IMG/VR virus record: IMGVR_UViG_3300046809_000477
Location: 1-40,032 of that record
DNA: 40,032 bases
Strand: one strand, 5' to 3'
Source: a virus
Made by a program: the position numbers and the translations under genes. Each line of letters begins with the position of its first letter. The stretch's first letter is position 1. The notes under the pieces are model-generated. The model saw only the letters and a list, made by a program, of their open reading frames with translations, searched no databases and was not told the DNA's origin. Shown here piece by piece: positions 8,542 to 35,690 of the stretch.

Positions 8542-8615
8542 CGGGATGTAGCTCAGCTTGGTAGAGCGTCCGCTTTGGGAGCGGAAAGTCGCAGGTTCGA
8601 TTCCTGTCATCCCGA
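8542..8615 (+). tRNA. tRNA-Pro (anticodon TGG)
   Basis: Perfect 7-bp acceptor stem (CGGGATG / CATCCCG), a D-arm, a 5-bp anticodon stem TCCGC / GCGGA enclosing loop TTTGGGA (anticodon TGG), and a T-arm with the GGTTCGATTCC core. CCA is not encoded. Confidence 0.95.
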
Positions 8616-8616
8616 C

Positions 8617-8651
8617 TTTGTCCAGACGCCGAACCCTGCTCCTGGACAAAC
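8617..8651 (+). repeat. Inverted repeat between tRNA-Pro and the riboswitch
   Basis: TTTGTCCAG (8617-8625) and CTGGACAAA (8643-8651) can form a hairpin. CCCTGCTC in its loop can alternatively pair with GAGCAGGG in the riboswitch 5' region (near 8667-8674), so the two structures may be exclusive. Confidence 0.55.
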
Positions 8652-8768
8652 TCTGTAATCAACCCCGAGCAGGGGCGGGAGACCGAAACGCAGCACTGGG
8701 GCGAATCCGAGTATTTAGCGGTAGGGAGCGCACTTTCCCGAGCCCGTCACCTAATCTCGCAGGCGCAG
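8650..8768 (+). ncRNA. ydaO-yuaA (c-di-AMP) riboswitch
   Basis: Conserved blocks of the family appear in the right order and spacing: GGGAGACCGA near 8678-8687, GGGGCGAATC near 8698-8707, GTAGGG at 8721-8726, and the diagnostic 3' block CCCGAGCCCGTCACCTAATC followed by CGCAGGCG, ending near 8765. In actinobacteria this riboswitch class controls cell-wall hydrolases and turns expression off when c-di-AMP is high. Here it ends about 14 nt before the start codon of a LysM-NlpC/P60 hydrolase, exactly the expected target. Confidence 0.9.
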
Positions 8769-8778
8769 GAGTGCTCTC

Positions 8779-9432
8779 ATGAACAAGCGGATTGCAGGAC
8801 TCACGCTGGCTGCTGCCCTGGCAGTCATTCCGATTGCCCCTGCGGCGGAGGCGCAGGCACACGCACCCAGCACGTCCCAGTACGCCACTGTCCGGAGCGG
8901 TGACACCCTCAGTGGAATCGCGCTCACCCACCACACCACCTGGGAGCACCTGGCTTCCATCAACCACCTGCTCAACCCCAACCGCATTTACCCCGGGGAG
9001 CGCCTTCTGCTTTCCGGGTCCAGCGGTACCACCCCGAAGCCCAAGCCCAAGCCGAAGCCCAAGCCGACTCCGGCACCCACCTCGGGTTCGAAGGTCGTCG
9101 CCTACGCGGAGACCTTGCGAGGGATCCGCTATGTCTGGGGCGGTGAAAGCCGGTCCGGCTTCGACTGCAGTGGACTCACCCAGTACGTGTTCGCCCACCT
9201 CGGCAAGCGGATCCCCCGTGTCGCTGACGACCAGTACAGGGCCGCCCAGCACGTCAGCAGCCCGAAGCCGGGCGACCTGGTGTTCGTCCACGACTCCAGC
9301 GGCTACGTCTACCACGTCGCCATCTACGTCAACAGCCACACCTGGCTGGAGGCCGAGCGCCCCGGGCGCGGAGTGGGCCTCTACGCACCCTGGAGCCGTA
9401 GCGTGTCGTACGGCCGCTTCACCGTGAAGTAG
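8779..9432 (+). CDS. Secreted LysM-NlpC/P60 peptidoglycan endopeptidase, 217 aa
   Basis: GCAGGAG precedes the ATG. Residues 1-26 are a signal peptide and about 37-80 a LysM domain (Tyr-Ala-Thr-Val-Arg-Ser-Gly-Asp-Thr-Leu). A Lys-Pro repeat linker spans about 88-100. Residues 105-217 are an NlpC/P60 domain with catalytic Cys130 in Phe-Asp-Cys-Ser-Gly-Leu and His179 in Tyr-His-Val-Ala. The enzyme should cut stem peptides in the cell wall after export. It is controlled by the c-di-AMP riboswitch immediately upstream. The signal peptide makes it unlike most holin-dependent endolysins, and it closely resembles host hydrolases, so host origin is likely. Confidence 0.9.
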   Translation: MNKRIAGLTLAAALAVIPIAPAAEAQAHAPSTSQYATVRSGDTLSGIALTHHTTWEHLASINHLLNPNRIYPGERLLLSGSSGTTPKPKPKPKPKPTPAPTSGSKVVAYAETLRGIRYVWGGESRSGFDCSGLTQYVFAHLGKRIPRVADDQYRAAQHVSSPKPGDLVFVHDSSGYVYHVAIYVNSHTWLEAERPGRGVGLYAPWSRSVSYGRFTVK

Positions 9433-9573: not shown

Positions 9574-9807
9574 ATGGACAAGGTGACAACGCTTCTGCAG
9601 TTCGTTCACAACGACTCGATAATGTCGAATCTGGCAGCAAGCGCGATTACCGCAGTCCTGGCTCTCCTCATCGGCACGACATGGGTCCGCAAACTCCGTG
9701 ATGAACTCCGGGACCACATGACGCTGATCGAGGAGAGCCACCGACTTCTTCACCACGTACACCGCGACGCAGCAGTAGAGCTGGGCCACGACGTACGTAT
9801 TCCCTGA
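9574..9807 (+). CDS. Small membrane protein, 77 aa
   Basis: ATG at 9574 begins 17 nt after tRNA-Leu, with no obvious ribosome binding site. One hydrophobic segment (about residues 21-42) is followed by a charged His/Arg/Glu-rich helix. The stop overlaps the first 7 nt of tRNA-Asn. It could be a holin-like or membrane-accessory protein, but one membrane span and position between tRNAs do not prove it. Confidence 0.55.
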   Translation: MDKVTTLLQFVHNDSIMSNLAASAITAVLALLIGTTWVRKLRDELRDHMTLIEESHRLLHHVHRDAAVELGHDVRIP

Positions 9808-9873
9808 TAGCTCAATTGGCAGAGCTGCGGATTGTTAATCCGTGCGTTCCTGGTTCGAGTCCAGGTCGGGGAG
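9801..9873 (+). tRNA. tRNA-Asn (anticodon GTT)
   Basis: Acceptor stem TCCCTGA / TCGGGGA (with one T-G pair), D-loop with TTGGCAGA, anticodon stem GCGGA / TCCGT with loop TTGTTAA (anticodon GTT), and T-loop GTTCGAGTCC. Confidence 0.93.
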
Positions 9874-24041: not shown

Positions 24042-26075
24042 TCAGGAAGCTGCTGTTACATACTCACGATGGAGCACTTCCGCGAAGGTTACTCGTGAGG
24101 GTCCTTCCGTAACGCACTCCATCGTGAGGTTGCTCGGATCGGGACGGCGCTCCATGAACGACGCCTCGATGTGAAGGTCAGGCAGCGGGTTGAGGGAAGG
24201 CGGCGGAGTGCCCCCGAACCCTTGCAGCCTCTGAACAGCCTCCGGCAGCGAGCCATCCCGCAGCAGCTTTGTCGCCAGCACCTTTATGCTCTCCACCGCC
24301 GTGAACTCCTCCGGCATCTCCGGCCACGACAGACCGTGGCGGACCTTGTAGAACACCGCATCCAGGATCTCCCGACGCGACCGCTGCGGCTTGGTGCCCC
24401 GTGCGGGCGGGAACAGGTCCACCACGGCGGCCCACGACTCGTCGCTCAGCACAGCGGGCACCAGCAGGCCGGAGCCCTTGAACCAAGTCTCGAACTCCGT
24501 CGGCTTCACCGCCCGCCGCTCCACCCGCGAGCGGACGTGCACTCCGATGTCGAAGAGCGTCAGGGCGTCGAGCATCTGCATCTCGGTCAGGCTGTCCAGA
24601 TCGGGACGTACCCGGTCCGCCAGGGTCAATACATCGGCGACCCGCTGCTCCTGCACCTCCGCGTCGGCGAGCCACCCCCGCACCTGGTTCAGCTCCTTCT
24701 CGATCTTGGTTTCCTGGTTCTTCAGCTCGGCCTTGACGTCGGCCAGCATCTCGGCATCGAAGTCGTCATCGTCGTCAGCCAACGCCAGCAGGGTCACGAG
24801 ACGCTTCTTGCGGCTCTTTCGCTTGCGCTCCAGCAGCTCCTCCAGCTCCGCGATGCGCTCGCGGTAGCCGGTGGCCAGAAGGGGCACAGCACCGAGCCAC
24901 TGGTCGGCCAGGTCCTGCAGGTGTCCCCGGTCCCGGAAACCCTCGGAGACGGTCTGCCAGACCACGCGTTCGACCTCATCCGCGTCGATCTCCGTGCAGC
25001 CGCAGCCCACGTAGTTCTTGTGGGAGGAGAGCGTGCCTGTGCAGCGGTAGGACCGACGGTCGTTATGCGTCTTCACGGCCCCGCTGTAGTAGTTTCCGCA
25101 CAGCCCGAAAAGCCTCTTCGAGAGCAGGTACATTCCCGCTTCACGGTGACGCTGAGGACCCCGTCGCGTGAGTGCGGCCCGCACGGCCTTGATGCGCTCC
25201 AGGGGGATGATTTCGGGGAGGCTGACGCGCCCGGTGTCACCGTGCAGGTATTCGCCGGTCTCCTCGTCGCGTGCCGCATTTGCGCGACTGCCGTTGGCTT
25301 CCTCGTCGCGGAACGCCATAAAGCCGAGCAGGGCATTGCCGAGCAGGATCTGACGGAGGTTCGACTGCTCCCACTTGCCGCCGTGTCGATTGACTTTCCC
25401 GAGATTGTTCAGCGAGTCAGCGGCCTCCTTCACCGTCATGTCGTGATCAACGATGCTCCCGATAGCCAGTTCCAGGATCTCGACCTCGGCAGGATTGGCG
25501 ACCGGCTTGGCAGTAGCACCCTTGCCTTCGAGCATGAACCCGAAGGGCGTGCCTCCGCCGACCCAACCACCCTCATGCAGCTTGGCCTCGCGGCCTCCGG
25601 TGGTGCGCTCCAGGATCAGCAGGTGCTCGGTGTCGGCCATCCACGCCAGCAGGGAGAGCATCAATTTGAAGGTGTCGTCGGCATTGTCCAGACGGCCGTC
25701 TGCGGTGATGAGGCGGATGCCGACATGGTCGATGTCGAACACCCAGCGGTGGATGTCCTCCATCGTGCGACCGATGCGGTCGACCTTGGCGACCACGACG
25801 ACGTCGATCTTGCCGTCGGCGATGTCCTGGTTCATGCGGTCGAACTGGGGGCGGCTGGCCTTCTTGCCGCTCACGCCCGCGTCGGTGTAGGTGTCCACGA
25901 TTACGAACCGCTGCCCGCGCATCTTCACGGTGAGGGTGTCGTGGCACATCTCGTTCTGGGTCTGGAGTCCGTATCCCTGGACCTGCGCGGCGGTGGACAC
26001 GCGGAGGTAAATCGCTACACGCAGAACCTTGTCTGCCCGTGCGAGGAACCTCTGGCGGGTAGTGGGCTTGCCCAT
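24042..26075 (-). CDS. Large serine recombinase (phage integrase) with DUF4096-like C-terminal extension, 677 aa
   Basis: Residues about 18-170 are the resolvase catalytic domain, with the nucleophile Ser27 in Leu-Arg-Val-Ser and the Asp-Arg-Ile-Gly-Arg motif near 110. A recombinase domain follows (about 190-310). A zinc ribbon with Cys pairs lies near 323-365, then a long coiled coil (about 390-500). Residues about 543-591 then resemble the N-terminal DNA-binding module of IS5-type transposases (Leu-Ser-Asp-Glu-Ser-Trp, Pro-Pro-Ala-Arg-Gly, Arg-Arg-Glu-Ile-Leu-Asp-Ala-Val). Serine integrases recombine attP with attB; the extension is unusual. Confidence 0.88.
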   Translation of the reverse strand: MGKPTTRQRFLARADKVLRVAIYLRVSTAAQVQGYGLQTQNEMCHDTLTVKMRGQRFVIVDTYTDAGVSGKKASRPQFDRMNQDIADGKIDVVVVAKVDRIGRTMEDIHRWVFDIDHVGIRLITADGRLDNADDTFKLMLSLLAWMADTEHLLILERTTGGREAKLHEGGWVGGGTPFGFMLEGKGATAKPVANPAEVEILELAIGSIVDHDMTVKEAADSLNNLGKVNRHGGKWEQSNLRQILLGNALLGFMAFRDEEANGSRANAARDEETGEYLHGDTGRVSLPEIIPLERIKAVRAALTRRGPQRHREAGMYLLSKRLFGLCGNYYSGAVKTHNDRRSYRCTGTLSSHKNYVGCGCTEIDADEVERVVWQTVSEGFRDRGHLQDLADQWLGAVPLLATGYRERIAELEELLERKRKSRKKRLVTLLALADDDDDFDAEMLADVKAELKNQETKIEKELNQVRGWLADAEVQEQRVADVLTLADRVRPDLDSLTEMQMLDALTLFDIGVHVRSRVERRAVKPTEFETWFKGSGLLVPAVLSDESWAAVVDLFPPARGTKPQRSRREILDAVFYKVRHGLSWPEMPEEFTAVESIKVLATKLLRDGSLPEAVQRLQGFGGTPPPSLNPLPDLHIEASFMERRPDPSNLTMECVTEGPSRVTFAEVLHREYVTAAS

Positions 26076-26468: not shown

Positions 26469-27548
26469 ATGAGCAGCGGCACAGTCAGCACCGCAGTCAC
26501 CGAGTACCTGTCCCTGCGCAAGCGGGCCGGGAAGGCGCACAACACCATGCGAGTCGACCGCACCCTGCTGCCACGATTCGCCGGACACGTGGGTGACCCC
26601 GACTTCAGCCAGCTCACCATGGACGTCGTCCGCGACTTCTTCTACGGCGAGGGGGGCGTCATGGACACCCACTCCACCCGCATCAAGGGCCAAACCATCC
26701 GCGAGGCCGTCGGCCCCGGCACCCACAACAACTACCGCGCCAGGCTGCGGGTCTTCTTCACCTGGGCCAAGGCCAACGGCTACACCGAGTCCGGCACCCT
26801 CCTTGACGGCGTCGAGCCACTCAAGCTGCCCCGCCGACGCCGCCAGCAGCCCAGCCCCAACCTGCTGCTCCAGCTCCTGGACCAGGCCGAGTGCGCCATG
26901 CACCGTGCCTACCTGGCCGTGGCCATCAACACCGCCTGCCGTGCCAGCGAGATCACGGGCATCCGCGTCGGTGACATCGACTTCGCGGCCGGGGAGGTCT
27001 TCGTGACCGTGGTCAAAACCCAGGAGGAGGACGAGATGCCCCTGACCGCCGACCTCGAACGAGAACTGCGGGTCTGGCTCGTCGAGTACGCCGCCACCCT
27101 TGGTCGCCCCCTGCGCGCCGACGACTACCTCTTCCCCGCACGGTCCGGCAACGTCATCGCCCGCAACTACCTCGACCCCAACACCGGCACGAGGATCCTG
27201 GAGCGCACCCCGTACACCTACCACCCCGAGCGCCCGGTCACCCGCACCGAGAAGATCGTCAAGCACGCCCTGGCCGCTGTAGGTCTGCCCACCCGCTACG
27301 AGGGCACCCACACCCTGCGCCGGGCAGTCGCCCGCGCCTATTTCGATAGCATGACCAACGAGATCGGCTACGACGCAGCACTGCGCACTGTCAGTGCTCT
27401 GCTGCACCATGCATCCATGTCCACCACTGAGCGGTACCTTGGCCTGTCCAGCGAGCGAGCACGCCGGGACCAGATGCTCCGGGGGAAGCCCTTCCTTACC
27501 GCCATGGTCAGCCAGGAGAATGTCGTACCGCTGCGCCGGACGCAGTGA
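26469..27548 (+). CDS. Tyrosine recombinase/integrase, 359 aa
   Basis: AGGAGG lies 7 nt before the ATG. Residues 5-115 form a SAM-like core-binding domain. The catalytic domain contains Arg158 (Cys-Arg-Ala-Ser-Glu), Lys183, His281-x-x-Arg284 (His-Thr-Leu-Arg), His314 and the nucleophile Tyr323 in Thr-Glu-Arg-Tyr-Leu-Gly, the complete set. It would perform site-specific recombination such as integration, excision or dimer resolution. A second, unrelated recombinase lies 0.4 kb away on the other strand. Confidence 0.9.
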   Translation: MSSGTVSTAVTEYLSLRKRAGKAHNTMRVDRTLLPRFAGHVGDPDFSQLTMDVVRDFFYGEGGVMDTHSTRIKGQTIREAVGPGTHNNYRARLRVFFTWAKANGYTESGTLLDGVEPLKLPRRRRQQPSPNLLLQLLDQAECAMHRAYLAVAINTACRASEITGIRVGDIDFAAGEVFVTVVKTQEEDEMPLTADLERELRVWLVEYAATLGRPLRADDYLFPARSGNVIARNYLDPNTGTRILERTPYTYHPERPVTRTEKIVKHALAAVGLPTRYEGTHTLRRAVARAYFDSMTNEIGYDAALRTVSALLHHASMSTTERYLGLSSERARRDQMLRGKPFLTAMVSQENVVPLRRTQ

Positions 27549-28464: not shown

Positions 28465-30030
28465 ATGGAGGCAGAAGACTACGACTACGACGTCATCAGC
28501 GATGAGACCGACGAAGAGCACCAAGCGCGCCTGGACACCGAGGTCATCCTCGATGAGACAAGCCAGGCCTTTGTCGACCAACTCGTGGCCAAGATGCTCC
28601 TCGTGGTCGATGAGGTCTCTGGCCACCCGCTGTACGGCTACCAGCGCCCCTTTGCAGCCCGCCTGATCGAGTCCCTGATCATCAACGACGGGGCCACTCT
28701 CACTGCCCTGTTCTCCCGCCAGTCCGGTAAGTCCGAGACGGTGGCCAACGTTGTCGCCGCCTGCATGATCATGTTCCCTCGGCTCGCGAAGCTGTTCCCT
28801 GACCTCCTGGGCAAGTACAAGGAGGGCCTCTGGGTCGGAGCCTTCGCGCCGGTCGAGGAGCAGGCCGACAACCTCTACGGGCGAATCGTGGCCCGACTGA
28901 CCAGTGAGCACGCCCTGGCAGTCCTGGCCGACCCCGAGATCGACGACTCGATCCAGGGCAAGGGCCGCTCGCTGTCCCTCAAGCGCTCCGGCTCGCTGGT
29001 GCGCAAGCAGACGTGCCACCCCCGCGCCACCATCGAAGGACGCACCTACCACTTGATCTTGATCGACGAGTGCCAGGGCGCGGACGAGAAGATGGTGAAC
29101 AAGTCGATCGGCCCGATGGGTGCCTCGACCAACGCCACGATGTGCTTCACCGGCACGCCCACTTACGAGAAGGGCGTGTTCTACAACCAGATCCAGATCA
29201 ACAAGCGCACTGCCACCCGGCGCGGGGCCCGCCAGAACCACTTCGACGCCGACTGGCGCGAGGTCTCCAAGTGGAACGCCAACTACAAGAAGTTCGTCAA
29301 CAAGGAACTTCTGCGCATCGGCGAGGACAGCGACGAGTTCAAACTGTCCTACAGGCTCATGTGGCTCCTGGACAAGGGCATGTTCACCACCTCGGAGCGC
29401 CTGGACGAACTCGGCGACACGTCCATGCAGGCGGTGAAGAGTTACCACAAGAGCCACGTCGTCATCGGCATCGACCCCGCCCGCAAGCAGGACTCCACCA
29501 TCGTCACGGCGGTGTGGGTGAGGTGGGACCGGCCCGACGAGTACGGGTACTACGAGCACCGGGTGCTGAACTGGATGGACCTGGGCGGCATGGCCTGGGA
29601 GGAGCAGTACTTCCGAATCGTGGAGTTCGTGCGCTCCTACTCCGTCTACGCCGTCGGAGTCGACGAGGGCGGTGTGGGCGACGTCGTCCTTTCGCGCCTG
29701 CAGGTTCTGATGCCGGACATACACATCGTGCCCCTGTCCTCCCAGCGACCCGAGCAGTCCAAGCGCTGGAAGCACCTGATGGAACTGATGGACCGAGGGC
29801 TGCTCTCCTGGCCCGCCCACGCCTACACGCGACGCCTCAAAACGTACAAAAGGTTCAGGCAGCAGATGGAAGACCTGGAGAAGAAATTCGAGGGCCCCTA
29901 CGTCCTGGCCGAAGCACCTAAGGCGGCCGACGCCCACGACGACTACGCCGACTCCCTCGCGCTGGCATGCGTGCTCACCAAGGACTTCACCCTGCCCGAG
30001 GTCGAGGTCTCTCGATCTCCCTTCCGCTAA
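28465..30030 (+). CDS. Terminase large subunit, 521 aa
   Basis: ATPase domain with Walker A Gln-Ser-Gly-Lys89-Ser and Walker B Leu-Ile-Leu-Ile-Asp201-Glu202. Nuclease domain with the acidic residues Ile-Asp-Pro-Ala near 335, Asp-Glu-Gly-Gly near 398 and a His-Asp-Asp-Tyr-Ala-Asp near 492. This motor cuts and pumps DNA into the procapsid. It has no clear ribosome binding site. Downstream order to portal, scaffold and capsid is the usual one. Confidence 0.92.
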   Translation: MEAEDYDYDVISDETDEEHQARLDTEVILDETSQAFVDQLVAKMLLVVDEVSGHPLYGYQRPFAARLIESLIINDGATLTALFSRQSGKSETVANVVAACMIMFPRLAKLFPDLLGKYKEGLWVGAFAPVEEQADNLYGRIVARLTSEHALAVLADPEIDDSIQGKGRSLSLKRSGSLVRKQTCHPRATIEGRTYHLILIDECQGADEKMVNKSIGPMGASTNATMCFTGTPTYEKGVFYNQIQINKRTATRRGARQNHFDADWREVSKWNANYKKFVNKELLRIGEDSDEFKLSYRLMWLLDKGMFTTSERLDELGDTSMQAVKSYHKSHVVIGIDPARKQDSTIVTAVWVRWDRPDEYGYYEHRVLNWMDLGGMAWEEQYFRIVEFVRSYSVYAVGVDEGGVGDVVLSRLQVLMPDIHIVPLSSQRPEQSKRWKHLMELMDRGLLSWPAHAYTRRLKTYKRFRQQMEDLEKKFEGPYVLAEAPKAADAHDDYADSLALACVLTKDFTLPEVEVSRSPFR

Positions 30031-31247: not shown

Positions 31248-32966
31248 ATGAGTCAAGCCATCTCCTTCGCCAGCCCTAGCCAGCGGGCCGGGCAGTCGGA
31301 CCTCACGGTCCAGATCTCGCCCCTCGGGCTGGTTGAGTTGGCGGACGAAGAGTTTGAGGTACACGGCCAACGCCTTAACCGCTATGCCCAGAACTTCGCA
31401 TATTACTTGGGTCACCACTGGGCGTTCCGGCGCGAGGCTGGCGAGCCGCAACTCACGTTCAACTACGTGAAGGCGTTCGCCGACTACATCCTCAACTTCA
31501 CTTTCGGCCGAGGCGTTCACTTCAAGAGCGTCAAGGAGTACGAGCACATCATCCCAGCCCTGCTCAAGCGGGCCTGGGAGGTCGACAACTCCAAGCACCA
31601 GCTCCTGTGGGAGATGGGCCAGCAGGGAGGTGTCAGTGGCGATTCCTTTGTGAAGGTCGCCTACGCCCCCGAATACGTAGACAGTCTGGGACAGAAGCAG
31701 CCGGGGCAGGTCAAGATCCTTCCGCTCAACTCAGCCTTTTGCTTCCCCGAGTGGCACCCCCATTCGCGGGACCGGCTGATCCGCTTCAAACTGAAATACC
31801 GCTTCTGGTCGACCGGCGAGGACGGGACGCGAAGTGTGCGCACCTACGTCGAGGTGCTGACCGACGACGTCATCGAGGAGTACCTGGATGACGAGCTGAT
31901 CGACTCCCGGCCCAACCCGCTCGGTGTCATCCCCGTCGTCCACATCGCGAACACCCAGGTCTCCGGATCTCCTTGGGGCCTTTCCGACATCGCCGACATC
32001 ATCAGCCTGAATCGTGAGTACAACGAGAAGGCCACCGATATCAGCGACATCATCAACTACGGTGCGGCCCCCGTAACGATCATCACGGGCGCGAAGGCGA
32101 GCAACCTGGAGCGCGGCCCACGCAAGGTGTGGGGAGGACTCCCGAAGGACGCCCAGGTGTTCAATCTGGAGTCCGGGATGGACCTGAATGGTCCTCTCGC
32201 GTACCTGGAACTCCTCAAGCGTTCCATGCACGAGATCACGGGTGTTCCAGAGACCGCACTTGGTCAGATGCAGGCCGTGAGCAACACGTCGGGTGTCGCC
32301 CTGGCAATCCAGTTCCGGCCCATGATGGCCAAATACGACCAGAAGCGTCTGCAGTATTCCGTCGGCTTGCAGAAGATCAACAACTTGATCCTCAAGACCC
32401 TGTTCACCTTCGAGCCTGAGACGCGCCTCTACGATCCCTCCACCGAGGGAATCATGAAGAGCGACCAGCCAACGATGGTGGACGTCCGGGATCCCATGGC
32501 CTACTTCACCGAGTGCGAATGGCCAGCACCTCTCCCTGTCGACGTTCTCATCGCGCTGAACGAGATCCAGGTGAAGATGTCCCTGGGTCTGGAGTCGATG
32601 CGCGGGGCGCTGCACACACTGGGCGAGGAGTTCCCCGACGAGAAGGTCAGGGAGATATTCGAGGAGCAGATCGAGGACGCCAAGCAGCAGGCCGCATTGC
32701 GCATGCTAAAGGCGCAGTTCGACTCGGCTATTCTCTCGTTGACGGGAATGCCACCGGATGGGGTGGATGCGCCTGCACCTCAGACGGATGCGGCCGGTAA
32801 CCCGATCAATGCGCCTGGGGGTCCGAATCCGGTGTCGCTCCCCGGTGGACTCGATCTCGGGTCCATTACAGCACCCGAGGTTCAGAAAATGATCAACGAG
32901 ATCGTGACACAGGCGTATGGCCCCAGAGCGGGACTCCGCCGAAATCCGGACACAGATACCGACTAG
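31248..32966 (+). CDS. Phage portal protein, 572 aa
   Basis: GGAG upstream. Length and pattern fit SPP1 gp6-type portals. An N-terminal wing is rich in aromatic residues. A central stem region has the typical Ser-Asp-Ile-Ala-Asp-Ile-Ile-Ser-Leu-Asn-Arg-Glu-Tyr-Asn, then Ile-Thr-Gly-Val-Pro-Glu-Thr-Ala-Leu-Gly around 335-345. A Glu-rich C-terminal crown ends in a Pro/Gly tail. Twelve copies would form the DNA entry ring of the head. Confidence 0.88.
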   Translation: MSQAISFASPSQRAGQSDLTVQISPLGLVELADEEFEVHGQRLNRYAQNFAYYLGHHWAFRREAGEPQLTFNYVKAFADYILNFTFGRGVHFKSVKEYEHIIPALLKRAWEVDNSKHQLLWEMGQQGGVSGDSFVKVAYAPEYVDSLGQKQPGQVKILPLNSAFCFPEWHPHSRDRLIRFKLKYRFWSTGEDGTRSVRTYVEVLTDDVIEEYLDDELIDSRPNPLGVIPVVHIANTQVSGSPWGLSDIADIISLNREYNEKATDISDIINYGAAPVTIITGAKASNLERGPRKVWGGLPKDAQVFNLESGMDLNGPLAYLELLKRSMHEITGVPETALGQMQAVSNTSGVALAIQFRPMMAKYDQKRLQYSVGLQKINNLILKTLFTFEPETRLYDPSTEGIMKSDQPTMVDVRDPMAYFTECEWPAPLPVDVLIALNEIQVKMSLGLESMRGALHTLGEEFPDEKVREIFEEQIEDAKQQAALRMLKAQFDSAILSLTGMPPDGVDAPAPQTDAAGNPINAPGGPNPVSLPGGLDLGSITAPEVQKMINEIVTQAYGPRAGLRRNPDTDTD

Positions 32967-32979
32967 GAGTCGAAAGCGA

Positions 32980-33825
32980 ATGCCGCTTCATACCTCGGGC
33001 ATTTCCCTGCCCGCCATGACCGTGCTGGGCCACCGCAAGAACGGCTCGCCGATCTACAACATCGCTGGCGGCGCACCTGAGCCCGGCGAGCCGGTCATCA
33101 CCATCCCGGTCGTCCCCCCGCCGACTCCGGCCCCCGCTGAGCCGCGCTTCACTGCTGCGGACATCGAGCGGGCGCGGCAGGAGGAGAAGGACAAGTTGTA
33201 CAAGCGCCTGGACACGGTCGAGACCCAGAACAAGAAGTTCCTGGACGAGATCGAGGCCCAGCGCAAGGCGCGGGAGGAGGCCCAGGAGGCCGAGGCAGAG
33301 CGGCAGCGCCAGGCCCAGGAGGCCGCCCGCACTCAGGCCGAGCAGGAGATGTCCGCCAAGGACCTCCTGGCGGCCAAGGAGGCGGAGTGGAACAGCCGCT
33401 TCGCCCAGTTCGAGGCGGATCGCGAGAACGAGCGCGCCCTCTTCGCGAAGGAGCAGGAGTTCAACGCCCTGCAGTCCTACATCCAGCGCCGCGTCGGCGA
33501 GGAGCAGGACAACATCGCCCCAGAACTTCTCGACCTCGTGACCGGCAATTCGCCGGAGCAGGTCGAGGAAAGCCTGAATACCCTCAAGGGAAAGACTCAG
33601 GCTATTCTTGAGTCTGTTCAGCAGGCTGCGATTCAGCAGCGCTCGCAGATGCGTGGAGTCAGCCCTACGGGATATGCCACGACTGGACCAATGGACTCTG
33701 AACCGGGACACAAGTCGTACTCCGTCAGCGACCTGAAGGACATGCCGATGTCGGAATACGCCAAGATTCGGGGCCAGTTGGGGATCGGCCAGTCGGCCGG
33801 TAACCAGCGTGGACTGTACTCGTAA
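32980..33825 (+). CDS. Capsid scaffold protein, 281 aa, starts Met-Pro-Leu-His-Thr
   Basis: AGGAG lies 10 nt before ATG at 32980. Residues 55-150 are a long Glu/Ala/Gln/Arg coiled coil typical of scaffolding proteins, with a helical C-terminus for capsid contact. It sits between portal and capsid as expected. CTTCATAC (32986-32993) encodes residues 3-5 in an otherwise unrelated N-terminus. Confidence 0.85.
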   Translation: MPLHTSGISLPAMTVLGHRKNGSPIYNIAGGAPEPGEPVITIPVVPPPTPAPAEPRFTAADIERARQEEKDKLYKRLDTVETQNKKFLDEIEAQRKAREEAQEAEAERQRQAQEAARTQAEQEMSAKDLLAAKEAEWNSRFAQFEADRENERALFAKEQEFNALQSYIQRRVGEEQDNIAPELLDLVTGNSPEQVEESLNTLKGKTQAILESVQQAAIQQRSQMRGVSPTGYATTGPMDSEPGHKSYSVSDLKDMPMSEYAKIRGQLGIGQSAGNQRGLYS

Positions 33826-33857: not shown

Positions 33858-35690
33858 ATGCCCAGTGCAATCACCGGTACCCCGAACCTGTCGGCCTCGC
33901 CGACGAACTACTCGGGTGCCAACAGCACGCTCGGTGCGGCGATCCAGACCATCTGGTCCAAGGAGATCCTGTTCCAGAGCATGCCGATCCTCCGGTCTCG
34001 GGCCGCCTGATCCAGTGATGGGTCAGTGAGAACCACGCTGTATCGGTGAACCCCTCCAAATGGGCGAATGGGGAATACCGAGGGAACCCAACATCTGGGA
34101 CTCCGTAGAGACTACACGCGAGGCATCTCCAACAGTTCCAGCCTTTAGATGGGCAGTAGGTCGGTACTGGAGATGAAAATATAGTCCGAACTTGCACGAT
34201 GGAAAAGTGCAAGAGCCAGACAGAAATGCTTTGGCCCCGCAGCCAGCGGGTAACAATCGCGAATTGTCGAGCAGTTCGCCGTGAAGAAGACGGAGTTGGG
34301 TGTTCAGCCCGGTCTCCAAATCAACTTCATGAGGTACAACAATTTGGGAGCCGCTTCCCAGTTGGTCGAAGGCGTTCGGATGCAGACCAACGCCCTGTCG
34401 GCCTCTCAGTTCTCCATCACGGTGGCTGAGCACGGCTACGCGGTCGCCGTCTCCGAACTCCTGCTCAACGCGTCCTTCGACGACGTGATGGCCTCGGCCT
34501 CGCGTCTGCTCGGTCTCACTTTGGCCGCCTGAGAGGGAAACCTCTCAGTGAAAATCCCGAGAATTGCTGGAACATCCTGCTAGACCTCTTCACCACAGCG
34601 TGGGGCGAAAGCCCGAGCGCGATGGTTTGAGAAGAAGAGGGTAGGGACAATCAGCAGCCGAGCCCCTTAACTGGGGAAGGTTCACAGAACATGCACGGGA
34701 GACCCGAGAGGGTCAAGAGATGTTCGGGTCTACAGGGAAACCTGTAGAGGCTGGCAGAAATGACCAGCCCACTTCGGAGAAATCCGGAGGGGTAACAGAA
34801 CGCGAAACATGGCGCTCTACCTCGACCAGTCCGCGCGGGACACCCTCCTGCAGGCGTCGAGCAAGATCTGGGGCTACAACAAGTACGCCCAGACCAGCGC
34901 GTTCGGCGTCATGGCGCAGTACTCGCACGGCACCGCCGCCACCGGCACTGACCTGCTGGACGGCACCTTCAGTTTCACGGCGGCCCTCACCAAGGACGCC
35001 ACCGAGACACTGAGCACCAAGAACGTCCCCCGCTTGGGGGACACGTACGTGGCGTTCGTCCACCCGCACCAGTCGCGGCAGTTGCGCGATGACCCCGAGT
35101 GGATCGAGGTCACCAAGTACGCGGCCCCGGGCTCGTTCATGATCGGCGAGATCGGCCGCCTCAACGACGTGGTGTTCATCGAGACCACGCAGGTGAAGCA
35201 GTTCACCAACGCACTGGGGAAGACGGTCTACCAGAGCATCTTCCTGGGCGACAACGCCTTCGGGCACGCGATCTCCCTCCCGGTGGAACTGCGCGACGGC
35301 GGCATCCTCGACTTCGGTTTCACTTTGGCCGCCTGACAGAGCAATCTGTCAGTGAACAACCCGAGAATTGCTGGGACGTCCTGCTAGACCTCAGAGCTAC
35401 AACGTGAGACGAAAGTCTGAGCGTGAACGCTTGAAAATCTGAGGGTAGGGATAATCAGCAGCCGAGCCCTTTAGCTGGGGAAGGTTCACAGACTATGTAC
35501 GGGTCACCCCACGCGGGTGAAGATATAGTTCGGATCTGCATGGAGACATGCAGAGGCTGGCAGAAATGACCAGCCCACTCCGGGAGACCGGAGGGGTAAC
35601 AGAATGCGAGAGCACGCACTCGCCTGGTACGCGATCTGGGGCCTTGGCCTCATCACCGACCAGGCCGTCCTGATCGCCGAGACCAACTGA
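33858..35690 (+). CDS. Major capsid protein (N4-gp56 type), split by three group I introns; spliced product 328 aa
   Basis: Four exons: 33858-33996, 34267-34514, 34803-35318 and 35607-35690. Joined, they give 987 nt in one uninterrupted frame ending at TGA 35688-35690. The spliced protein reads through conserved capsid segments exactly at the joints: Leu-Arg-Phe-Glu-Gln-Phe-Ala, Leu-Leu-Gly-Arg-Asn-Met-Ala, and Asp-Phe-Gly-Arg-Glu-His-Ala. It ends with the family's typical Trp-Tyr-Ala-Ile-Trp-Gly segment. Length matches N4-gp56 family capsids. Without splicing, each exon meets a stop 11-15 nt inside the following intron, so splicing is required for virion formation. A terminator follows at 35747. 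Confidence 0.9.
33997..34266 (+). ncRNA. Group I intron 1 of the capsid gene, 270 nt, no ORF
   Basis: It follows a U in CGGU and ends in G. P1: exon CGGU pairs with intron GCCG (34002-34005 region). P10: intron CUCGG (33997-34001) pairs with the next exon's UCGAG. P7: GACUA (34110-34114) with UAGUC (34181-34185). A P9-type hairpin CTTGCAC / GTGCAAG spans 34190-34213. It is inserted after the first base of a codon (phase 1). Its core differs clearly from introns 2 and 3. Confidence 0.85.
34515..34802 (+). ncRNA. Group I intron 2 of the capsid gene, 288 nt, no ORF
   Basis: Inserted in phase 0 after CGGT; ends in G. P1 uses GCCG; P10 pairs CUUUG with exon CGAA. The catalytic core contains the typical AATCAGCAGCCGAGCCC block (from about 34649). 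P7 is GAACAU (34687-34692) with AUGUUC (34720-34725), a compensatory variant of intron 3's pairing. The 3' end has GGGGTAACAGAACG. Closely related to intron 3. Confidence 0.88.
35319..35606 (+). ncRNA. Group I intron 3 of the capsid gene, 288 nt, no ORF
   Basis: Inserted in phase 0 after CGGT; ends in G. P1 uses GCCG; P10 pairs UUUG with exon CGAG (two G-U pairs). Core block AATCAGCAGCCGAGCCC recurs. P7 is ACUAU (35492-35496) with AUAGU (35525-35529). Peripheral helices differ from intron 2 while stems stay paired, showing divergence under structural constraint. Confidence 0.88.

Follow-up and report, generated by a model that had tools for sequence, protein, structure and literature searches.

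Group I introns in a phage major capsid gene and a candidate intron-encoded degradation tag

What becomes of a capsid fragment made by a ribosome that reads past the 5' splice site of an unspliced intron? The question is raised by IMG/VR virus record IMGVR_UViG_3300046809_000477, whose 40,032 nucleotides were analysed as one stretch (the window). The major capsid gene of this Streptomyces-type phage, at 33858-35690, holds three group I introns, and in each of them the capsid frame runs on for a few codons to a stop that is preceded by Ala-Ala.

The capsid gene and its introns

Genes, exons and introns of the locus are arranged as follows.

28465..30030, + strand: terminase large subunit gene (context; phrog_2, 5.3e-25)
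31248..32966, + strand: portal protein gene (context; PF05133, 1.3e-21; phrog_64)
32917..33825, + strand: probable scaffolding protein gene (context; from gene order relative to phage LuckySocke gp77)
33858..33996, + strand: exon 1 of the major capsid gene (139 nt; intron 1 follows codon base 1; PHROG major head protein)
33997..34266, + strand: intron 1, group I (270 nt; RF00028, 38.5 bits, E 1.1e-7; joint exact in 8/8)
34267..34514, + strand: exon 2 of the major capsid gene (248 nt; frame and homologue alignment)
34515..34802, + strand: intron 2, group I (288 nt; RF00028, 53.0 bits, E 5.2e-12; joint exact in 8/8)
34803..35318, + strand: exon 3 of the major capsid gene (516 nt, a multiple of 3; frame and homologue alignment)
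35319..35606, + strand: intron 3, group I (288 nt; RF00028, 70.8 bits, E 2.3e-17; joint exact in 8/8)
35607..35690, + strand: exon 4, including the capsid stop codon (frame and homologue alignment)

A Pfam and PHROG search with the probable scaffolding gene gave no family match. For the capsid gene, removal of the three inserts leaves 328 codons and a stop, and the 328-residue spliced product matches PHROG family phrog_1357, major head protein (6.1e-62). All three joints are gap-free in the eight intronless capsid genes compared (DNA identity 68-85%), among them those of Streptomyces phages LuckySocke and BRock, which are continuous across every joint. The positions given to the inserts by the initial annotation are thus borne out. 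The joints also set the intron phases (1, 0 and 0 for introns 1, 2 and 3), independently of anything encoded within the introns.

The same annotation had called the inserts group I introns from their borders and a paired P7. These signs recur at all three: a T before the 5' end, a G as last base, and the following pairings, drawn by eye.

34002..34005, + strand: likely internal guide GCCG of intron 1 (pairs with CGGT of exon 1; P1 with U.G)
34110..34114, + strand: P7 5' strand GACTA of intron 1 (partner TAGTC, 34182-34186)
34687..34692, + strand: P7 5' strand GAACAT of intron 2 (partner ATGTTC, 34720-34725)
35491..35495, + strand: P7 5' strand GACTA of intron 3 (partner TAGTT, 35526-35530)

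By eye, both P7 strands of intron 2 are altered relative to introns 1 and 3 and the pairing is kept, and in all three introns the 5' splice U pairs with the guide G. The core reported earlier for introns 2 and 3, AATCAGCAGCCGAGCCC, is indeed common to both, and the two are close relatives. A search with the Rfam covariance model, proposed as a check, found RF00028 in all three, with introns 2 and 3 above its gathering score of 50 and intron 1 (38.5 bits) below it and hence weaker. Together with the exact joints in intronless homologues, these matches support the group I assignment. That the inserts stay unspliced, the capsid being made in pieces or the gene decaying, is barely credible given the joints exact in all eight homologues compared, the Rfam matches, the two-sided change in P7 and the occurrence of the same introns in three other contigs. 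Capsid synthesis would then depend on splicing, as the sequence predicts.

The capsid introns are short, and none has an evident gene for an intron protein; open stretches on their plus strands reach at most 52 codons, and the minus strand of intron 1 has one of 90. Folding of the intron 5' ends alone is unremarkable (z about -1). Because all three introns have the guide GCCG and the target CGGT (by eye), mis-splicing between sites is conceivable, and skipping of exon 3 would preserve the reading frame. Exon skipping has been reported for Twort and SIOphi genes, according to the cited part of PMC11878797.

The initial annotation also called three such introns in one structural gene exceptional, which is too strong. 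Twort orf142, a tail tube gene, likewise has three close-set group I introns in one virion gene, with exon skipping (Landthaler and Shub 1999, as cited in part of PMC11878797), although its exon 1 read-through ends RSFT*, with none of the Ala-Ala tail of the window. Major capsid genes cut by several introns are described in the relevant parts of two further sources: a crAss-like phage with its capsid ORF in five group I intron-split fragments (PMC7886860), and Faustovirus, unlike the window phage a eukaryotic virus, with five group I introns in the capsid gene (PMC6247863). A relative found in this analysis has four.

Other elements of the window lie outside this gene. A c-di-AMP riboswitch (RF00379, 62.5 bits; 8617-8780) comes just before the ORF 8779-9432, which by eye has the look of a LysM/NlpC cell-wall hydrolase; two tRNA genes (8542-8615 and 9801-9873) flank this region. 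The riboswitch is present in sister contig G047 as well, and was not found in phages BRock and LuckySocke. A serine recombinase gene (24042-26075, minus strand) adjoins a tyrosine integrase gene (26469-27548); in its C-terminal part the recombinase matches an IS4/5-type transposase domain, DUF4096 (PF13340, 2.6e-11).

Introns in relatives

Introns 2 and 3 are also found in three other viral contigs, and each of their records has three RF00028 introns side by side, equal in size to those of the window. RF00028 had no match in any of 15 records of intronless relatives. Among 295 genomes of a Streptomyces strain's genus, RF00028 occurs in three, in two of these within this capsid gene. A blastn search of named phages gave only partial matches for intron 2, in Pseudomonas and Xanthomonas phages, and none for a related intron, L237; a search of plasmids with the capsid gave two remote matches.

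The 98-kb sister contig G047 has four introns. The fourth (L440, G047:C1:49131-49417) lies some 7.5 kb downstream of the capsid gene, where it interrupts what is probably a gene for a tail tube; with this spacing, a counterpart in the window would fall beyond the window's end. The interrupted exon is similar to a Streptomyces tail tube gene, that of genome G272 (PF06841, phrog_4542). In G013 (L220 and L438), a capsid gene of the same family holds four group I introns, mostly at other sites.

Two further RF00028 occurrences stand apart. An AT-rich contig in a Streptomyces-genus assembly (G239:C34; L436, L437) has three matches and an organelle-like look, and is perhaps contamination. A match in an Armatimonadota MAG (L441, G006:C116:118281-118556) is without a clear exon frame and perhaps lies in a tRNA gene.

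Read-through tails

The degradation tag that bacteria encode in ssrA (tmRNA) has Leu-Ala-Ala as its C-terminus, which ClpXP recognises. Continued into introns 1, 2 and 3 of the window, the exon frame reads RSRAA*, GLTLAA* and GFTLAA*.

33996..34010, + strand: intron 1 read-through tail, S-R-A-A-stop (TCT CGG GCC GCC TGA; first base exonic)
34515..34532, + strand: intron 2 read-through tail, L-T-L-A-A-stop (exon frame translation)
35319..35336, + strand: intron 3 read-through tail, F-T-L-A-A-stop (exon frame translation)

Introns 2 and 3 thus have C-terminal LAA, and RAA of intron 1 is a weaker variant. The initial annotation did note endings in Arg-Ala-Ala and Leu-Ala-Ala, solely as virion peptides that would refute splicing; their likeness to a degradation tag was missed. 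This likeness is the more novel point.

Of four Streptomyces genomes analysed with ARAGORN, three have the tmRNA tag ANTKRDSFALAA and one has ANTKSDNSRFALAA; the Streptomyces tags so found end FALAA. The window tails have the C-terminal Ala-Ala of ANTKRDSFALAA, with LAA in two of the three introns, and their common part with the host tag is no more than LAA or AA. Tails of related introns go further. Those of L237 (found also in genome G096) and L231 read SAKRQDSFALAA and GLQRDTFALAA, so that KRQDSFALAA and LQRDTFALAA match the tmRNA tag KRDSFALAA almost fully, with different codons, including AGC against TCC for serine.

Such endings recur elsewhere. All four introns of G047 read xAA, L440 with SDWALAA*; the tail tube intron of G272 reads IDWALAA* and its capsid intron RSRAA*; three of the four capsid introns of G013 read xLAA. 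The relative L019, with a single intron at another site of the same capsid gene, has the tail ASTENWALAA*, and L088 has DECHLAA*, in different codons. Exceptions occur as well: intron 1 of G013 reads ILSA*, and capsid intron 1 of G096 reads FAV*.

In the account of Edgell, Chalamcharla and Belfort (2011; cited part of PMC3073962), most group I introns have an in-frame stop shortly after the 5' splice site, and read-through of the window introns is ended in the same way. The window introns have in addition an ssrA-like tail before the stop, residues on which that part of the account is silent. Multi-intron capsid genes and in-frame intron stops are already known (PMC7886860, PMC6247863 and PMC3073962, in the parts cited). 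No report of an intron-encoded degradation tag was found in the literature searched, which excluded bioRxiv and most subscription papers.

A survey of viral introns

Is the tail peculiar to one lineage, or even to chance? Viral contigs were collected by group I core patterns blind to the 5' end, and all counts are among the matches listed. At least 293 cores had P4 and R elements; 162 of those listed had a confident exon frame (60 or more open codons, and 1.5 times as many as in the next frame), and setting aside the 131 that had none and 27 near-duplicates left 135 introns. Some tagged introns escape the caller (L173 intron 1, and introns 1 and 2 of the window), so that intron 3 alone of the window is within the 135. 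Rfam found an intron in 40 of 41 viral records chosen for checking, mostly tagged-looking ones.

Among the matches listed, AA* ends the read-through in 38 of the 135 deduplicated introns, 20 of them with LAA*, against 2 and 0 of 243 at the nearest stops in the other two frames, although these counts are not fully independent because introns share ancestry. Of the GCNGCN-stop motifs, 38 lie in the exon frame and two out of it (2.6e-16 against an expectation of one third; matches listed). Natural C-termini at the same loci end in AA* in 20 of 964 cases and in LAA* in one, so that read-throughs differ by Fisher tests at 4e-23 and 3e-18, respectively, among the matches listed. The VA* ending is a degron variant in ssrA work. 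It closes nine of the 135 read-throughs and nine of the 964 natural C-termini, and the AA tail is absent from 97 of the 135 introns (both among the matches listed).

These numbers bear on an alternative in which the introns are ordinary and the tail functionless, LAA arising by chance where RNA pairing fixes the guide and P2 (GGCCGCCUGA). The Ala codons of introns 1-3 do share bases with the guide GCCG and the beginning of P2, and introns 2 and 3 are closely related. A motif fixed at the RNA level leaves unexplained why, among the matches listed, it lies 38 times in the exon frame and twice out of it. It also leaves unexplained why codons and stops vary: the 38 tails comprise 31 different 12-nt strings, with all four codons at each Ala and all three stops. 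(Only frame and wobble are informative here, because the definition of the class fixes the first two bases of the Ala codons.) In L019, L101, L173 and L088 the codons differ and, by eye, seem to lie downstream of the guide, and the host tmRNA tag is copied in two tails by other codons.

Intron phase provides a further argument against a functionless tail. Across the GCCG-guide lineage, the Ala codons lie 5 nt from the inferred splice site in phase 1, 7 nt from it in phase 2 and 9 nt from it in phase 0, where 6 and 12 nt also occur, and the tail remains in frame as the distance changes with phase. Phase in this listing is derived from the in-frame tail; for the 7-nt cases the exon frame is taken from open frames of 225-251 codons. 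Unusable rows are L088 and one of L231 (chance matches), L224 and L229 (no long open exon frame), and L091 at 23 nt and L153 at 15 and 24 nt (likely a wrong CGGT start). Taken together, the evidence makes a functionless tail unlikely, and the codon, frame and phase results point instead to selection on the tails as peptides.

The tails might also have been natural exon residues. A homologue that runs past the site is available for 35 of the 38 tagged introns (three have none such), and the best-scoring homologue stops matching 2-14 residues before the tail stop in 34 of these 35, on which ground this reading was rejected. In the exception, L149, the AA is exonic; L146 is ambiguous, some homologues matching to the end.

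A replicate with another core pattern gave 18 new introns, with AA* in two (p 0.06) and AA* or VA* in five (p 0.0002). It therefore supports the effect only if VA* is included, a grouping that arose from inspection of the first set, and is weaker than that set. Three of the five are in tail sheath or major head genes (PHROG), and two are without a family. On a tree of the intron cores, the tag label changes 25 times and 29 clades are all-tagged, counts that are only suggestive because the sequences are short.

Host genes of tagged introns

Tagged introns reside in genes of major head families (PHROGs 1328, 1357, 267, 9953 and 10), tail sheath family 205 and phrog_13692; the hosts of L225 and L138 gave no family match, and the phrog_13692 host protein is modelled by AlphaFold at low confidence (pLDDT 33). 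Host labels, transferred from cluster representatives, give 29 tagged introns of 53 in head and sheath genes against none of 24 in metabolism and replication genes (Fisher 6e-7; among the matches listed). With one count per host cluster, the ratio is 7/10 against 0/9 (p 0.003; matches listed). The 24 comprise 13 in ribonucleotide reductase (RNR), three in DNA polymerase, two each in DnaB, RNA polymerase and photosystem D1, and those in RecJ and a kinase. The other 58 introns stand outside this comparison: nine are tagged (seven in phrog_13692, L225 and L138), and the rest include scaffolding, homing-endonuclease and unlabelled hosts, as well as singletons never individually scanned.

The association is partial. 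Among the matches listed, 24 of the 53 head and sheath introns are untagged, including all those of two head families (phrog_3437, 0/5; phrog_1005, 0/2), and the scaffolding cluster has none tagged of four. Among named phages, AA* ends none of 11 framed read-throughs: phiA009, RHph_N3_13, Str-PAP-1, Herod, the Vibrio 1.232.O capsid, phiNIT1, RCIP0099, LucasX, PAP02, V5 and Twort tail tube exon 1. (That set left out nepoznato, KEN_01, phiTE, CF5, EF1, ICP1, PA7 and 2050HW, where the ORF end was not tied to the intron start.)

In the Bastillevirinae, group I introns were found solely in DNA-metabolism genes (RNR, polymerase and terminase) by the authors of PMC11878797, who in the cited part ask why. 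These introns are of the same ribozyme class as those of the window, and the sample adds a large class of virion-gene introns beside them. The two differ in their tails: none of the 24 introns labelled RNR, polymerase or other metabolism gene is tagged, among the matches listed.

This bias is relevant to a non-proteolytic role, in which the stop, some 12-47 nt before P4, would park the ribosome so that the core can fold, and the residues would aid termination or pausing. The stops of tagged introns do lie 12-47 nt before P4, and in-frame stops inside most group I introns have been explained as excluding ribosomes (PMC3073962, in the part cited). Untagged introns, however, have stops at that place too, and ribosome positioning accounts neither for the head and sheath bias nor for the match of KRQDSFALAA to most of the host tag. 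We regard it as quite improbable.

A model for intron-encoded tagging

The introns, their exact joints, the tails, the in-frame enrichment of xAA, the near copies of the tmRNA tag and the virion-gene bias are the observations that a model has to accommodate. The reading that we favour, and consider probable, is that introns in genes for self-assembling virion proteins encode a degron, by which fragments made from unspliced mRNA would be destroyed. Splicing, translation of the tails, recognition by ClpXP and a benefit to assembly would be its component steps, as judged from sequence.

Most likely, GTP-driven self-splicing removes the introns to yield the 328-residue major capsid protein. Because transcription and translation are coupled in bacteria, some ribosomes would pass a 5' splice site before splicing. 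Such an early ribosome would read the first intron codons, adding a short tail, and halt at a stop in or beside P1/P2. The tails SRAA, LTLAA and FTLAA (introns 1, 2 and 3) resemble the host ssrA tag, and ClpXP-type proteases would clear the truncated product before it is drawn into capsid assembly and poisons it.

The intron tail differs from the tmRNA tag in being encoded in cis, on messages that carry a stop codon, so that tmRNA would not be needed. A free 5' exon, which has no stop, would go to tmRNA and receive the same kind of tag; since that case would be handled by tmRNA, the intron tail would cover the one that is invisible to it.

The general form of this model is that a copy of the host tmRNA tag, encoded in cis, has evolved repeatedly in mobile group I introns of genes for self-assembling virion proteins (capsid, tail sheath and tail tube), leading to destruction of the products of unspliced RNA. 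We think this reasonably likely.

Implications

The fate of the truncated protein falls outside the account of intron stops in the cited part of PMC3073962. It could matter, as capsid and sheath fragments could poison assembly. An intron-encoded degron, if true, would explain the tolerance of multi-intron capsid genes, and the degradation tag may let introns persist in the most assembly-sensitive genes of phages. It would also represent a new quality control of gene expression, one that links RNA splicing to protein quality control in bacteria.
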